From contig CAIXHE010000107.1 in the NCBI GenBank assembly GCA_903919205.1, positions 1 through 64,000 on the forward strand: a stretch of 64,000 nt of DNA, written 5' to 3'. The notes under the pieces are model-generated. The model saw only the letters and a list, made by a program, of their open reading frames with translations. It was not told the DNA's origin and made no database searches. Within the stretch, counting starts at the first letter, position 1, and every line of letters starts with the position of its first letter. Below are positions 9,021-19,456 of this stretch, piece by piece. The DNA comes from an uncultured Opitutaceae bacterium. Its GTDB lineage: Bacteria > Verrucomicrobiota > Verrucomicrobiia > Opitutales > Opitutaceae. The translations under genes were made by a program, and so were the position numbers.

Positions 9021-10127
9021 ATGAAAATCCTCATCCTCCAGGACCAGCTCCGGAGTGGCGGGACCGAGCGCCATTCGATCCTTCTGAGCCGGGAATTCGC
9101 CGCCCTCGGCCATGGCGGCGAGTTGGTGGTGTTCCGGCCCGGCGGCCGGCTGGCGGCGTCCGCCCCCGCCCACCAGGTCCTGCAGCCCTTCGACACCGGC
9201 CTCGACTGGCTGGCGCCCGGGCTCACGCGCGCGGCCCTCGGGGGAGCGCCCGACATCGTGCTCTGCATGGGCAAGACCGCCAACTGCTTCGCCGGGCCGC
9301 TGCAGGGCCGGGCGAGGACGCGCGGCCTCGCCACCCGCGTCGTCGCCACCCTTCGCGCGGGCGACAGGCTCCCCTGGTTCTACTACGCCTCCGTGCGTAG
9401 AGCGGCCCACCTGGTCGCTAACAGCCACGAGGCCGCCACCGAGCTGGTCAACAACCACGGGCTCGACCGCGGCCACGTGAGCGTGATCCACAACTCCCTC
9501 GTGTTCCCCGAGGGCGGCGCCCCGCGCGACGAGGCCCTGCGCGCCCGGCTCGGGGCGGGACCGGGGACCACCGTGCTCCTGAACGTCGCCATGTTCCGGC
9601 CCTCCAAGAACCAGCGCGACCTGCTGAAGATTGCCGCGGGCCTTCCCAAGGGCTGGGACTGGCGCCTGTGGCTGGTCGGCGACGGCGTCGAGCGGCGGGT
9701 CTGCGAGCGCCTCGCCACGGCGCTCGGCATCTCCGAGCGGGTGAGCTTCCTCGGGTTCCAGCAGGACCCGGCCCCCTACTACCGCGCGGCCGACATCGCC
9801 GTCCACGCCTCGCGCGAGGAGGCGCTCTCGAACTTCCTGATTGAGGCCCAGTCCCACGGGCTGCCGGTGGTCGCCTGCAAGGCCCTCGGGATCAGCGAGT
9901 GCTTCGTGCGGGGACGCACGGGCTGGGTCGTGCCCCAGGGGGACCCGGCGGCCTTCCGCGCCGCCCTGGCGACCCTCGCCGACGACACCCCGGCCACCCG
10001 GGCGCAGCGGGCCGCCGAGGCCCGCAGGTTCGCGCAACGGGCATTCGACCCCCAGGTCCAGGTCCGCGCGTACATAGGCCTGTTCAAAACCCTCGTAAGG
10101 GACACGCTCCCCGCCTCCGCCCTGTGA
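9021..10127 (+). CDS. glycosyltransferase, group 1 (GT4-like)
   Basis: MKILILQDQLRSGGTERHSILLSREFAALGHGGELVVF; C-terminal VHASREEALSNFLIEAQSHGLPVVA. Confidence 0.88.
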   Translation: MKILILQDQLRSGGTERHSILLSREFAALGHGGELVVFRPGGRLAASAPAHQVLQPFDTGLDWLAPGLTRAALGGAPDIVLCMGKTANCFAGPLQGRARTRGLATRVVATLRAGDRLPWFYYASVRRAAHLVANSHEAATELVNNHGLDRGHVSVIHNSLVFPEGGAPRDEALRARLGAGPGTTVLLNVAMFRPSKNQRDLLKIAAGLPKGWDWRLWLVGDGVERRVCERLATALGISERVSFLGFQQDPAPYYRAADIAVHASREEALSNFLIEAQSHGLPVVACKALGISECFVRGRTGWVVPQGDPAAFRAALATLADDTPATRAQRAAEARRFAQRAFDPQVQVRAYIGLFKTLVRDTLPASAL

Positions 10128-13100
10128 AGGTGGCGAACGGGGGGTCGGCCGGGCCCCGCAGCCGGCCCGAGTGCATCCGCCTTCGCGGCGTGCGACAGAA
10201 CAACCTCAAGGGATTCGACCTCGACGTTCCCCTCGGCCGCTACGTGGTCGTCACCGGGCTCTCCGGGGCGGGGAAAAGCTCGCTCGTGTTCGACACGCTG
10301 CACGCCGAGGGGCAGCGCCGCTACGTGGAGACCTTCAGCGCCTACACGCGCCAGTTCCTAGAGCTCCTCGCCAAGCCGCGCGTCGACTCGATCGAGAACA
10401 TCCGTCCCTCGATCGCGATCGAGCAGACCAACACCGTCAAGAGCTCGCGCTCGACCGTGGGCACGATGACGGAGCTGACCGACTTCTTCAAGGTGTGGTT
10501 CAGCCATGTTGCGCAGTGCTTCGACCCCGCCACGGGCGAGCAGGTCGAGGACGACAGCCCCCAGAGCGTCTGGCGCAAGGTGCTGGCCGCCAAGGCCGGC
10601 TCGACCGTGGTCGTGGCCTTCGAGGTGGCGCGCCCCGAGAAGCTCTCCTGGGCCGAGATCCTGCCGAGCCTGAAGAACCAGGCCTACGTGCGCCTGCTGG
10701 CCGAGACCGCGCCGGGCGCGGGCCTCTCGGCGCTGCGGGTCGACGACCTGCTGGCCGACCCCTCGCCGATCGCCTCGTCGCGCAGCGTCTTCGTGGCGCA
10801 GGACCGCGTCCGCGTCGAACCCGCGGCGATGGCCCGCTTCACCGAGGCCGTCGAGACGGCGATGCACTTCGGAAAGGGCGAGGTGCGGGTCTTCGACGGC
10901 GCTGACTTTGCCGAGGTGGGACACTACTCGCGCGGGCTTCACTCGCCGAAGACCGGCCGGCGCTTCCGGCCGGCCACCCCGCCGCTCTTCTCCTTTAATT
11001 CCCCGCTCGGGGCGTGCCCGGCCTGCCGCGGATTCGGGCGCGTGATCGAGATCGACTACCGGCTCGCGATACCCGACCCCTCGCTCTCGATCGACCAGGG
11101 AGCCATCCGCTGCTGGGAGGGCGAGGTCTACAGCGCGTCAAAGGACGACCTGCGGAAGTTCACCCGCAAGCTGAAGATCCCCACCGACGTCGCGTTCGAG
11201 AAGCTGACGGCGGAGCAGCGCGCGTTCATCGTCGAGGGCGAGCCCGGCTACGGCGCCGAGAACGGCAGGGAGTGGCCGAAATACTGGTACGGGGTGAAGG
11301 GCTTCTTCCGCTTCCTGGAGAAGAACACGTACAAGATGCACGTGCGGGTGTTCCTGTCGCGGTACCGCTCGTACAACACCTGCCCGGCCTGCGGCGGCGC
11401 GCGGCTCCAGCCCGAGGCCCTCTGCTGGAAGTGGCGCGGCCGCACCCTGCCCGAGCTCTACGCCCTGCCGGTCGACACGCTCCTCGAGCTCGTGCGCGGC
11501 GCGAAGGCTCCTGCGGCCGAGCGCCCCGCGGCGCTCGCCTACGACTCGATCGTCACGAGGCTGAGGTACCTCCGCGAGGTGGGCCTGGGCTACCTGACGC
11601 CGGACCGGCCCTCGCGCACCCTCTCGGGCGGCGAGGTCGAGCGCGTCAACCTGACCGGCTGCCTCGGCACGTCCCTCGTCGACACGCTCTTCGTCATGGA
11701 CGAGCCGAGCGTGGGGCTTCACCCGCGCGACATCGACCGGCTGATCGGGATCATCCGCTCGCTGGTCGACGCGGGCAACTCGGTGGTCGTCGTCGAGCAC
11801 GACGAGGCGATGATACGCGCCGCCGACCACGTGATCGAGATAGGGCCGGAGCCGGGTCACCGCGGGGGAAACGTCGTCTTCGAAGGCACGGTCGGGCAGA
11901 TGCTCCGCTCCGAGGCGAGCATCACCGGGGACTACTTCTCCGGGCGGCGCACGATCGCCGCCCCGCAGAGGCGGCGCCCGGTCGAGGCCGGCCTCCCCCA
12001 CCTCGAGTTCCTGGGGGCCCGCAAGCACAACCTCGCGGGGGTCGACGTGCGCATCCCCCTCGGGCGGTTCGTGTGCCTGAGCGGCGTCTCCGGCTCGGGC
12101 AAGTCCACGCTGCTCGACAACGTGATCTACCAGGGCCTGCTCGCCCACCGCGGCAAGCCGGCCGAGGACCCGGCGAGCGTGACGGCGGTCAGGGGCGCCG
12201 GGCTCGTCTCGGAGCCGGTGCTCGTGGACCAGGGGCCCCTCTCGCGCACGCCCCGCTCCAACCCGGCCCTGTACGTCGAGGCCTGGGACCTGATCCGCGA
12301 GCTCTTCGCGGCCACGCCCGAGGCGCGCGAGGCGGGCCTGGGCGCCTCGAGCTTCTCCTTCAACGGCGGCGACGGCCGCTGCGACAGCTGCCAGGGCCTC
12401 GGCTACGAGCGCGTCGAGATGCAGTTCCTCTCGGACGTCTATGTGCCCTGCCCCGTCTGCGAGGGCCGTCGCTTCAAGCCGGAGGTGCTCGCGATCGCCT
12501 GGAACGGGGTGTCGGTCGCGGGGATCCTGGACATGAGCGTCACCGAGGCGATGCGGCACTTCGCGGCCTCGCAGCAGATACGTCACCGCCTGGCCCCGCT
12601 CGAATCGGTGGGTCTGGGCTACCTGACGCTCGGCCAGCCGCTCAACACGCTCTCCGGGGGCGAGTCCCAGAGGCTCAAGCTCGTGCGCTACCTGGGCGCC
12701 CTGCCCGGCCAGGCCGGGGCGCTGCTGCTCCTGGACGAGCCAACCACGGGCCTGCACCGCCACGACGTCGCCCGGCTCCTCGCGGTGCTCCAGGCGCTCG
12801 TCGAGCGCGGGCACAGCCTGGTCGTGATCGAGCACAATCTGGACGTCCTCAAGTCGGCCGACTGGATCATCGAGGTGGGGCCCGAGGCCGGGGCAGGCGG
12901 CGGCCGGATCGTGGCCGAGGGCACCCCGGAGGCGGTCGCGCTCGCCGGGGCCGCGACCTCGGGGTTCCTCGCGGCGGCCCTGGGCGGCCCCGCCGCGGCT
13001 CCGCCCGAGCCGTCGGGCGCGGAGCAGGCCGAGCCGGCGCCGCCGTCCACGACGATCGAGGTGGTGGGGGCCCGCGAGAACAACCTGAAGAACCTCTCGG

Positions 13101-15718
13101 TCTCGATCCCGCTGCGGCAGCTGACGGTGGTGACGGGCGTCTCCGGATCGGGCAAGTCCACCCTCGCCTTCGACATCATCTTCGCGGAGGGCCAGCGCCG
13201 GTTCATGGAGTCCATGTCGCCCTACGCGCGCCAGTTCGTCGAGCAGATGCCCCGGCCCGCGATAGACCGGCTGACCGGCATCCCGCCGGCGGTCGCGATC
13301 GAGCAGCGCGTCACGCGGGGCTCGCTCAAGTCGACGGTGGCCACGATCACGGAGGTGGCGCAGTACCTGCGGCTGCTCTACGCCCGGCTGGGCGTGCAGC
13401 ACCACCCGGAGACGGACCGGCCCGTGCGGCCGCTCTCGGCCGGGGCGCTGCGGGCGCTCTTGAAGCGGGTCATGTCGAGCGCCTCCGCTCGCCGCTCGAA
13501 GCACCTGTACCTCTGCGCCCCCCTCGTGCGCGGCCGCAAGGGCCACCACCAGCCGATCGCCGACTGGATCGCGAACCAGGGCTACGAACTCATGCGCGCG
13601 GACGGGAAGCTCGGCAGGGTCGACGCCTTCCAGAAGCTCGACCGCTACAAGGAGCACGACATCGAGGTGGTCGTGGCCGACGTGAAGGGCGCGCCCCGCC
13701 CGGGCCTGGCGCTCGACCGCGCGCTCGCCGTCGGCAAGGGCTCGTGCTTCCTGCTGACGCCCTCGGGAGAGGTGCTCTCGTGGTTCTCTACCACCCGCAC
13801 GGACATCGAGTCCGGCGAGTCGTTCCCGGAGCTCGACCCGAAGGACTTCTCGTTCAACTCGTCCCGTGGCTGGTGCCCGACCTGCCGGGGCTACGGCCAC
13901 ATCCACCCGTGGATGCTCGACCCCGACGCAGGCGAGGAGGACGAGACCGTCCAGCGCCTGAGGCAGCTCGGCCTCGCGGCCGGCGAGGAGCGGGCCGAGG
14001 GGGGGATGCCCTGCCCGGACTGCCACGGCGAGCGACTGAACCGCATCTCGCGCGCGGTGAAGCTCCACTTCAAGGGCAGGCAGGAGCCCCTGTCGCTGCC
14101 GGCGCTCCTGCGCCGCCCGCCGGCCGAGCTGATCGAAACCCTGGCGGCCATGGAGCTCGACGAGCGGGGCCGGCTGGTGACGCGCGACATCGTGCCGCAG
14201 ATCCGCGAGCGGCTGCTCTTCATGGACCACGTCGGGCTTGGCTACCTCTCTCTCGACCGGGCGACGAAGACCCTGTCCGGAGGCGAGGCCCAGCGCATCC
14301 GCCTGGCGGCCCAGCTCGGAACGAACCTGGCCGGCGTCCTCTACGTGCTCGACGAGCCGAGCATCGGCCTGCACGCGCGCGACAACCAGCAGCTGATCTC
14401 GACGCTCCTGTCGCTGCGCGACAAGGGCAACACGCTGGTCGTGGTCGAGCACGACGACGAACTGATGGAGCAGGCCGACCTCATCATCGACCTAGGGCCC
14501 GGCGCGGGCGTGCACGGGGGCGCCCTCCTGGCGCGGGGCACCCCGGCCGAGATCCGGGCGAACGACTCGTCGCTGACCGGCGTCTTCCTCGCCCGCGGCA
14601 TCCCGCACCCGCTGCGGGGCTCCTACCGCGGGATCGCGAAGGCGGACATCACGGAGCCCTGGATCGAGCTTCGCGGCGCCCACCTGCGCAACATCCGCGC
14701 GCAGGACCTGCTCGTGCCCCCGGGACGCCTCACGATGGTCGCGGGACCGAGCGGCGCCGGCAAGTCGACCCTGTTCCGGGACCTGCTTGGGCCGGCGGTC
14801 TCCTGCGCCATCAAGGAGCGGGCGAAGAGGCTGAGCGGCCGCGCGTATGCAAAGGCGTGCCCGGCCGCCGAGGGCGGATTCCGCGAGCTGCGGGGGGCGA
14901 GCGCCTTCCGCTCGGTGATCGAGGTGGACCAGTCGCCGATAGGCAAGACGCCGCGCTCCACGCCCGCCACCTACCTCGGCATCTTCGATCTGATCCGCAA
15001 GTTCTTCGCCTCGCTGCCCGAGTCGAAGATCCGGGGCTACACGGCCTCGCGGTTCTCGTTCAACACCGAGGGGGGCCGCTGCCCCGCCTGCGAGGGCGCG
15101 GGGCGCATCCGGCTCGAGATGGCGTTCATGCCCGACACCTACCTGCCGTGCGACGACTGCCAGGGCCTGCGCTACGGGCCGGAGCTGGCGGACGTCACCT
15201 GGCGCGACCGCTCGATCGGGCAGGTGCTCCAGCTCACTTTCGACGAGGCCGCCGGGTTCTTCAGCTTCCATTCCGAGCTCGGGGCCGTCTGCCAACTCAT
15301 GTCGGACTGCGGCCTGGGTTACCTGACGCTCGGCCAGAGCTCGTCCACGCTCTCGGGCGGCGAGGCCCAGCGACTCAAGCTCGTCACCGAGCTCTCGAAG
15401 GGACTGGCGAGCTTCAAGGAGCGCAACCGCGGGCTCTCGCCGCGCAACCTCTACATCCTCGAGGAGCCCACGATCGGCCTGCACCTGAGCGACTGCGAGA
15501 AGCTGATAAAGGTACTGCACTCGCTGGTCGACCAGGGGCACACCGTGGTCGTGATCGAGCACAACCTGGACCTGATCGCCGAGGCCGACTACGTGGTCGA
15601 GCTCGGGCCGGGGGGCGGCCCGAAGGGCGGCAAGATCACCTATCAGGGGACTCTGAGGGGGCTCATGAGCTCGAAGTCGAGCTCGACCGCCCCTTACCTG
15701 CGGGCCCGGGCCCGCTAG
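10124..15718 (+). CDS. uvrA: tandem-duplicated excinuclease ABC subunit A (four ATPase modules)
   Basis: Four P-loops ([36 protein letters not shown]), four signatures ([36 protein letters not shown]) and repeated CxxC zinc modules in a single ORF. Start inferred at a GTG around 10124-10130 overlapping the upstream stop. Confidence 0.93.
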
Positions 15719-16124
15719 GGCTCCACCCGACGAGGGCGGCGCGCACGGCCCCGGCGATCTCCGAAGCCCTCGCGGGCTTCAGCAGGCAGGCCGAGAGCCC
15801 CGCCGTCTCAATGCCGCGCGCGATGAAGTCCGGGTTCGAGTAGCCCGTGACCAGGATCCGCTTCGCGGCCGGGTAAGCGGCCTTGGAGCGCTCGAGGAAG
15901 TCGAGCCCCTGCTCCCCGGGAAGCACGTGGTCGCAGACGATCACGTCGACGGGGTGCGCGGCGAGGATGGCGTCGGCCTTCACGGCGTCCGCGGCCGTGT
16001 GGAGCCTGAAGACGCCCTCGAGGTGCCTGCTGAGTGCGTCGAGCAGCATGGGCTCGTCGTCAACCAGGAGCACCGCCGGCCGGGAGGACGGCGCGGGGGC
16101 GCCCTTTGAGGGGCCCCGGGCCAT
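15663..16124 (-). CDS. single-domain response regulator
   Basis: VLLVDDEPMLLDALSRHL...VIVCDHVLPGEQGLDF...RILVTGY...LLKP receiver domain. Confidence 0.85.
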   Translation of the reverse strand: MARGPSKGAPAPSSRPAVLLVDDEPMLLDALSRHLEGVFRLHTAADAVKADAILAAHPVDVIVCDHVLPGEQGLDFLERSKAAYPAAKRILVTGYSNPDFIARGIETAGLSACLLKPARASEIAGAVRAALVGWSPSGPGPAGKGRSSSTSSS

Positions 16125-16522
16125 CAGCCTGCGGCGCGGGCCGCCTCACCCACCACCTTGACCAGCTCGGCGAAGGCCACCGGCTTCAGGAGATAGCGAA
16201 AGAGCGCCGCCTCGTTGACGCTGCGGATCAGCATCTCGGGCTTCATGTAGCCGGTGATCAGGATCCTCTGCATGTTGGGGTACTCCTCGCGCGCCCGCAC
16301 CAGGAAGCTCATGCCGTTGCCGCCGGGCATCAGGTGGTCGCTCACGAGCACCTTGAAGGCCTTCTTGCGCAGGATGAAGTCGGCCTCGCGGGCCGACGAC
16401 GCGCTCGAGACGTCAAAATAGGGGCTCAGGGCGGCGGCGTAGGCCTCGACGAGGGGCTTTTCGTCGTCGACAACAAGGACCGCCAACTTCTTTTCCTGCG
16501 GGCTCGACTCGGCTGGGGGCAT
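16124..16522 (-). CDS. single-domain response regulator (paralogue of the neighbour)
   Basis: VLVVDDEKPLVEAYAAAL...VLVSDHLMPGGNGMSFL...RILITGY...LLKP; probable start MPPAESSPQEKK. Confidence 0.85.
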   Translation of the reverse strand: MPPAESSPQEKKLAVLVVDDEKPLVEAYAAALSPYFDVSSASSAREADFILRKKAFKVLVSDHLMPGGNGMSFLVRAREEYPNMQRILITGYMKPEMLIRSVNEAALFRYLLKPVAFAELVKVVGEAARAAG

Positions 16523-16650
16523 GCGGTTGCGAACCTGCCCATGGGGTCCGGGGTTGGCAAATCGAAACCCTGCGGGGGGCTCCCGTTTCAACCGGCCTTT
16601 TGAATTGCTTCAGTTGTGGGGCCGCGGTTCGATGGATACGCAGAGCAGCC

Positions 16651-17628
16651 ATGGCCGATCCCGCATCATCCCCCTCAGCCATCGCCGTGGAGCGCAACGC
16701 CGCCGGCCACACCCGGATCCATCGTGCCGCCCGCTATGGCGAGCTCTCCACGCTGCCGCCCGAGGCGCTGACCGAGGCCCTGCTGACCCAGAGGAACGAC
16801 GCCGGGTACACGCCCCTCCACCATGCCGCCATCGGGGGGCACCTAAGCCAGGTTCCGGCCGCGATCCTGACGGTGGGCAACCTCTCGCTGCGCAGCAACG
16901 CGGGCTACACAGTGTACCATGCGGCGGCCGCCTACGGGACCCTGGGACAGATCCCCGCCCCCCTGCTCACGGACGACATCTTTCACATCAAGAACGATAT
17001 GGGAAACACGGTGCTGCACGAGGCCGCCGAGAACGGCACGCTCGACAAGATCCCCGTCGAGCGCGTGACCCCCGATAACCTCAGCCTGCGCAACCTGAGC
17101 GGAGAGACCGTGCTGCACGTGGCGGCCTTCAACGGGCACCTGGACCAGGTTCCCGCGGCGTTGCTCACCCAGGCGGCGCTGCGCGAGGCGACCTCGGCGG
17201 GGGACACCGTGTTTCACGCGGCGGCCATATCGGGGCACCTGGAGCAGGTCCCCGGCTCGCTCCTCGTGCTCGAGAACCTCTCGATCCCGAGCAAGGCAGG
17301 CTTCACCCCGGCCCACGCGGCCGCCGAGACCGGCCAGCTCCGCAAGATCCCCGCCGAGCGCATCACCGGCGAGATGCTCATGAGCCGCAACGACAACGGG
17401 GACACCCCGCTCCATGCAGCCGCCTCCGAGGGTCACCTGGACCAGATCCCCCCGGCCCTCCTGACCCGCGAGCGCGTCTCGACCCGCAACTACGACGGGC
17501 TATCGGTGCTGAGGCTGGCGACCGAGCGCGGCTTCCTGGAGCAGATCCCGCCGGACGCCCGCCCGCGCGAGTACGGGCCGGTCTCCCGCATCCTGCGCAA
17601 GCTCAGCAGTACCCGCTCGCCGTTCTGA
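16651..17628 (+). CDS. ankyrin-like repeat protein (nine 33-aa units, non-canonical second half)
   Basis: Exact 33-aa periodicity in the translation, e.g. NDNGDTPLHAAASEGHLDQIPPALLTRERVSTR; start ATG at 16651. Confidence 0.85.
   Translation: MADPASSPSAIAVERNAAGHTRIHRAARYGELSTLPPEALTEALLTQRNDAGYTPLHHAAIGGHLSQVPAAILTVGNLSLRSNAGYTVYHAAAAYGTLGQIPAPLLTDDIFHIKNDMGNTVLHEAAENGTLDKIPVERVTPDNLSLRNLSGETVLHVAAFNGHLDQVPAALLTQAALREATSAGDTVFHAAAISGHLEQVPGSLLVLENLSIPSKAGFTPAHAAAETGQLRKIPAERITGEMLMSRNDNGDTPLHAAASEGHLDQIPPALLTRERVSTRNYDGLSVLRLATERGFLEQIPPDARPREYGPVSRILRKLSSTRSPF
16696..17587 (+). repeat. nine 99-bp units encoding 33-aa ankyrin-like repeats
   Basis: Units split cleanly every 33 residues, from NAAGHTRIH... 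to NYDGLSVLRLATERGFLEQIPP... Confidence 0.8.
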
Positions 17629-17722: not shown

Positions 17723-19009
<1,287 letters not shown>

Positions 19010-19033: not shown

Positions 19034-19456
19034 TCAGGCCGGCGCCGCGGTTCCGGCCGCCGGGGGATCCTCGGTCTCCTCGGCGATGTTGTCGAAGGCG
19101 TCGGAGAGCATCTGCAGCACCTCGGACTTGGGCGCGTGCTTCAGCACGTAGGCCTCGGCTCCCAGCTCGCGGGTCTGCATCACCGTCTTCATCGTGCTCT
19201 GAGAGGAGACGATGATCACCGGCATGTCCGGGTGCGCGGCCTTGAGCTTCGCAAGGACCTGCAGGCCGCCCATCTGCGGAAGGTTGATGTCGAGCAGCAC
19301 GACGTTCGGCTTGTGTGCGCCCGCCAGCTCGAGGGCGGTGGTTCCGTCTCCGGCCTCCCAGACGGTGGTGATCCCAAGCTGCTTCAGAAGCGTCTTGATG
19401 AGCAGTCGAACGTGGGGCTCGTCGTCGACGAGCAGGGCATTAACCGGCCTGGGCAT
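19034..19456 (-). CDS. CheY-like single-domain response regulator
   Basis: ALLVDDEPHVRLLIKTLLKQLG...VVLLDINLPQMGGLQVL...VIIVSS...VLKHAPKSEVLQML. Confidence 0.88.
   Translation of the reverse strand: MPRPVNALLVDDEPHVRLLIKTLLKQLGITTVWEAGDGTTALELAGAHKPNVVLLDINLPQMGGLQVLAKLKAAHPDMPVIIVSSQSTMKTVMQTRELGAEAYVLKHAPKSEVLQMLSDAFDNIAEETEDPPAAGTAAPA

Follow-up and report, generated by a model that had tools for sequence, protein, structure and literature searches.

A split-helix ankyrin-type repeat protein of the Opitutaceae and its joint inheritance with a single-domain receiver

The window (the whole stretch of DNA analysed, 64,000 nucleotides from an uncultured Opitutaceae bacterium) encodes an ankyrin-like protein in which the second helix of every full repeat is predicted to be split into short turns, and this protein is paired in inheritance with the product of the neighbouring divergent gene, the single-domain receiver RR2. 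The two are kept and lost together across the family, and for this reason they probably constitute a dedicated, undescribed signalling pair. The receiver neighbours, which the original prediction had mentioned for their location only, are the main functional lead. Coordinates of all features are listed in Table 1.

Table 1. Features in and around the ankyrin-like gene; positions are those of the window.
Feature	Coordinates	Strand	Evidence or remark
uvrA-type gene, double-length; far boundary of the conserved neighbourhood	10127..15718	+	
RR1, second receiver, control neighbour	15663..16124	-	Frequently missing where RR2 and the ankyrin gene are kept
RR2, single-domain receiver, divergent from the ankyrin gene	16124..16522	-	PF00072, 58.5 bits; start ATG 16522, TTG 16591 possible
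Intergenic region between RR2 and the ankyrin gene, 128 bp	16523..16650	.	Deleted with both gene starts in G534 (L216)
Split-helix (QIP-type) ankyrin-like repeat gene	16651..17628	+	325 aa; ORF, Ank_2, AlphaFold2, 22-row and 58-row orthologue alignments
Units 1-8, complete, 33 residues (99 nt) each	16696..17487	+	Starts at 16696 + 99k; unit cut and DSSP of the model
Units 4-8, proposed binding site: near-invariant acidic concave face (unit positions 5, 10, 13, 14)	16993..17487	+	
Unit 9, C-terminal cap	17488..17586	+	QIP retained, RP loop instead of the LLT turn
eno (enolase), usual downstream neighbour	17732..19009	+	Also found in genomes without the ankyrin gene
RR3, third single-domain receiver, directly after eno	19034-19456	-	

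The first unit begins at residue 16, the period is 33 residues, and each complete unit follows the pattern GxTxLHxAAxxGHL + DQIPxxLLTxENLxxR. Nine consecutive 33-residue units had been proposed; eight of these are complete, and the ninth is a C-terminal cap, opening NYDGLSVLRLATERGFLEQIPPDARP, in which QIP is present and a capping RP loop takes the place of the LLT turn (R in 90% and P in 97% of 95 orthologues). The division of the unit into an ankyrin-like first half and a QIPxxLLT-type second half is borne out by the composition of 197 units from 22 orthologues: G4 (98%), T6 (89%), H9 (89%), A11 (97%), G15 (98%) and L17 (87%) are conserved in the first half, and Q19 (67%), P21 (100%), L25 (74%), T26 (76%) and L30 (68%) in the second. 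The helix-breaking Pro21 is thus present in 197 of 197 units, and when the comparison is extended to 95 orthologues its conservation is 92-100% in each unit. As originally proposed, there is no additional domain among the Pfam and NCBIfam matches of the 325-residue protein. No signal sequence is recognisable by eye, and we take the protein to be cytosolic. Scans for promoters, terminators and Rfam families gave no matches.

Among Pfam models the protein scores 105.9 bits with Ank_2 (cut-off 27.3), and Ank_4, Ank_3, Ank and Ank_5 are likewise above their cut-offs, which makes it a variant within the ankyrin superfamily and not a new fold. The single-repeat models, however, do not span the 33 positions—the best stretch covers positions 1-16 of 33 with PF00023 and 2-16 of 30 with PF13606—and for the best 60 of 443 matches between the unit profile and all PDB chain sequences the best stretch lies within positions 1-18. 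The variant second half is covered by no named family in Pfam or NCBIfam. In the canonical numbering of ankyrin repeats (PMC8415598), which corresponds to unit position minus 2, Pro21 falls at position 19, inside helix 2; the canonical Leu21 is lost (position 21 is mostly Ala, Glu or Gly), the helix-ending Gly25 is absent (position 25 is mostly Ala, Pro or Arg), and the GADVN loop (canonical 25-29) gives way to (A/P)(E/D)(N/L)Lx, that is, the xENLx type.

AlphaFold2 models of the window protein (22-row alignment) and of a full-length orthologue (58-row alignment) have mean pLDDT values of 92.5 and 95.0, respectively. In every full unit of both models, DSSP assigns 7-8 residues to helix 1 and then three turns, each of 3-5 residues: HLD / PxxL / xENL. 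The region that includes QIPxxLLT, whose packing the original prediction had left to structure prediction, is modelled as these three short helical turns instead of helix 2. The top Foldseek matches are ankyrin proteins; their query TM-scores reach 0.71, and identity is about 25%. Viral matches are generic ankyrins. The protein is thus predicted to form a stacked ankyrin-type solenoid with helix 2 split in every full unit. Two defining canonical features fail although score and fold are those of an ankyrin, and we therefore regard the unit as a variant of the ankyrin repeat. The coherent solenoid of a distinct subtype that had been suggested from the regular period holds up well, given a second half without a named family, PDB relatives of the first half only, and two concordant models.

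Taxonomic spread, proposed earlier as a check, is narrow: in the genomes searched, the split-helix type is limited to Opitutaceae (Verrucomicrobiota). A search of relatives recovered a full-length or near full-length orthologue in 24 of 37 genomes of the window's family, the window genome counted, and a genome-wide scan retained 80 loci, labelled as Opitutaceae, its genera, higher Verrucomicrobiota, or an unassigned bacterial name. Searched for at the DNA level, the QIPxxLLTxENL pattern is present in 14 genomes of Opitutaceae versus one of about 350 other genomes of the phylum, and this last case contains a stop codon. The ankyrin matches inspected from outside Opitutaceae are of the canonical kind and lack QIP units, and phages and plasmids contributed generic ankyrin matches only (about 28-32% identity). 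Viral contigs yielded no relatives with the whole protein as query and one match with the DNA pattern, in a 69-residue frame without repeats, which we take to be chance; a PADLOC match to PDC-M72A (45.8 bits) was read as generic ankyrin similarity.

Across 95 orthologues the number of repeats does not vary and there are hardly any internal indels: 88 have no insertions, the other seven have insertions of 1-2 residues, and in no case were more than three internal deletion columns flagged. Full-length members are usually 341 residues long, those of the window's genus being shorter by about 16 N-terminal residues. In the eight least diverged pairs dN/dS is 0.14-0.32, which indicates purifying selection on the ankyrin gene. 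In the G194 orthologue (L153 1970-2818, + strand; a 283-residue frame), which is outside the set of 95, about two units are gone (model columns 209-265), and RR2 is kept in that genome. The only possible paralogue seen is a 225-residue frame at L149 1230-1904 (+) (G202:C7), in which a single QIP-like unit, ETVIHAAARTGTLSEIPVEFVTE, lies next to a unit of canonical appearance.

The location reported at the outset, between receiver-only genes and eno, is as described, with two receivers upstream on the opposite strand and eno downstream. The recurring gene order is uvrA, RR1 and RR2 (minus strand), ankyrin, eno. At 72 of the 78 loci with enough sequence (80 loci in total) eno lies downstream on the same strand, mostly at a spacing of about 70-290 nt; it is not downstream at six loci with ample right-hand sequence and in G435. 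The uvrA gene is on the left at 65 of 80 loci. Its product, of about 1860-1940 residues, consists of two tandem UvrA copies, and its position is conserved across the family. RR1 has Cys at the Tyr/Phe switch-aromatic position of receivers, and its frame and the RR2 stop overlap by one base in a TGATG-type junction.

Joint inheritance with RR2 is evident at several levels. When the RR2 search was set against the ankyrin searches in 56 Opitutaceae genomes, both genes were present in 38 (including G194, with its shortened ankyrin gene) and neither was intact in 18; one of the 18, G008, is weak evidence as a joint absence because it is 80% complete and also lacks eno. Across 338 genomes of the phylum the RR2-positive and ankyrin-positive sets are the same 22, all Opitutaceae. 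In the search of the 56 genomes, true RR2 matches score at least 163 bits and the next best 108. Where RR2 did not turn up next to the ankyrin gene, it was predicted to lie elsewhere in the assembly, and this held for all nine such genomes (69-75% identity). These nine are draft genomes and probably represent a smaller number of rearrangements; seven have ample flanks, L058 and L106 being contig ends, and three (L100, L105 and L106) are already counted among the 56. In two of the nine, RR2 lies by uvrA, separated from ankyrin-eno.

Mapped onto a 49-genome eno tree, the presence or absence of the pair switches about eight times, and at least six of these switches fall on well-supported branches. 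Remnants of joint loss are seen in G034, where the ankyrin gene is broken and RR2 is a 53-residue remnant, and in G534, where a single deletion joins residue 73 of the ankyrin protein to RR2 at about residue 16 (counted from the ATG); G025 lacks both genes and has uvrA and eno side by side. Of 60 loci that retain uvrA, RR2 and the ankyrin gene, 29 lack RR1, which served as control. The distances show weak co-evolution, with a partial correlation of 0.28 for ankyrin-RR2 versus 0.13 for ankyrin-eno after uvrA correction, and the mirror-tree approach is not discriminating.

Both proteins have a conserved face. In ankyrin units 4-8 the concave positions have entropies of 0.60-0.89 bits versus 2.1-2.5 bits on the back, and this face carries a mean net charge of -6.8 over 25 positions. 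Its near-invariant residues are Asn5, Glu10 and Glu13 of unit 4; Glu5 and Asn14 of unit 5; Asp5 and Ile13 of unit 6; Glu13 of unit 7; and Asp5 and Glu14 of unit 8. Concave positions are the main protein-binding surface of ankyrins and usually among the most variable (PMC8415598), and their conservation here points to one conserved partner. RR2 matches PF00072 at 58.5 bits (cut-off 30.2), and D19, D20, D62, T90, Y110 and K113 are each at least 97% conserved in 88 rows; RR2 thus retains a complete phospho-switch, with Asp62 as the putative phosphorylation site. The alpha4-beta5 stretch, the canonical output face of receivers (PMC1974792), is near-invariant in RR2, where its entropy is 0.24 versus 0.91 in the preceding part of the receiver; the corresponding values for RR1 are 1.09 and 1.52.

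On balance we lean towards a cytosolic ankyrin protein that serves as the dedicated binding partner of RR2, which would be read out through its alpha4-beta5 face. A kinase would phosphorylate RR2 at Asp62; the Thr/Tyr switch would then alter the alpha4-beta5 output face, and the altered face would change binding to the acidic concave face. The ankyrin protein, as an output scaffold or a sequestering adaptor, might in turn relay or block the signal. The fuller proposal, that a CheY-like receiver and phosphorylation-dependent binding to a family-confined split-helix ankyrin solenoid make up an undescribed two-component output module, is a tentative one, which we regard as possible.

The main rival of direct contact is a shared third partner. 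The ankyrin protein and RR2 could act in one pathway without touching, the concave face binding a conserved third protein (a kinase or a structural protein, for example) and RR2 acting upstream. Co-occurrence and separate conserved faces indicate a common pathway and not contact as such, and the two faces would also fit a common third partner. This arrangement, however, calls for a third component of equal conservation, and the conserved neighbourhood offers none, given that each of RR1, uvrA and eno can be separated from the pair; we consider it rather unlikely. Enolase is a weaker candidate. An action of the ankyrin protein on enolase itself or on the expression of eno would account for its usual position just upstream of eno, but genomes that lack the ankyrin gene have an intact eno, and at the loci noted above eno is missing downstream. 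It can thus be uncoupled from the ankyrin gene, its covariation with that gene is weak, and we judge this reading improbable.

Co-occurrence might also reflect hitch-hiking, with RR2 and the ankyrin gene gained and lost as neighbours in one island and without a functional link. The genes are adjacent in most genomes, so that most joint losses could each be the work of one deletion, and the uvrA-eno arrangement of G025, with neither gene, fits this reading. Yet all nine genomes where RR2 did not turn up next to the ankyrin gene had kept it, and RR1, which is equally linked, is often lost; hitch-hiking accordingly seems to us a poor explanation, and slightly poorer than that of enolase. Many bacterial ankyrin proteins are secreted effectors that act on eukaryotic hosts, and there are weak matches here to the effector ankyrin models AnkX (30.4 bits) and AnkY (16.4 bits). 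These scores lie far below the NCBIfam equivalog cut-offs for these Dot/Icm effectors (1400 and 600 bits), there is no apparent signal sequence and no secretion gene in the conserved neighbourhood, and the repeat number is fixed in a protein distributed family-wide in mostly environmental genomes. The family scores and the conservation pattern lead us to set the effector reading aside as very improbable.

The preferred reading, a dedicated pairing with RR2, provides a concrete candidate function for a gene conserved across Opitutaceae, and joint inheritance with one receiver makes for a testable ankyrin-receiver signalling pair. Neither a description of this ankyrin type nor a bacterial receiver-ankyrin pair was found in the titles and abstracts of the open-licence papers that the searches returned. 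Few scaffolds for designed binders have been studied as thoroughly as ankyrin repeats, and helix 2 is regarded as a fixed element of them; a natural solenoid with proline-broken turns for helix 2 in every repeat, at constant length, would represent a new repeat geometry.

With canonical ankyrins (PF00023 / PF12796; ankyrin-1, ankyrin-2 and DARPins) the window protein shares the 33-residue period, the GxTxLHxAA first helix, the hairpin Gly and Asn, and the stacked solenoid, whereas its helix 2 is broken by an invariant Pro and it has neither Leu21 nor GADVN. Rap proteins, for their part, are TPR proteins. The Rap phosphatases with Spo0F (RapH-Spo0F, PMC3035606) resemble the present pair in that a repeat protein is dedicated to a single-domain receiver; the repeat type is unrelated to the window's ankyrin, and we use the likeness as a working analogy only. 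RR2 itself is most like the CheY-like single-domain receivers, being a lone receiver with the full Asp/Thr/Tyr/Lys switch and a conserved alpha4-beta5 face, and it differs from them in that its presumed partner is an ankyrin-type solenoid.
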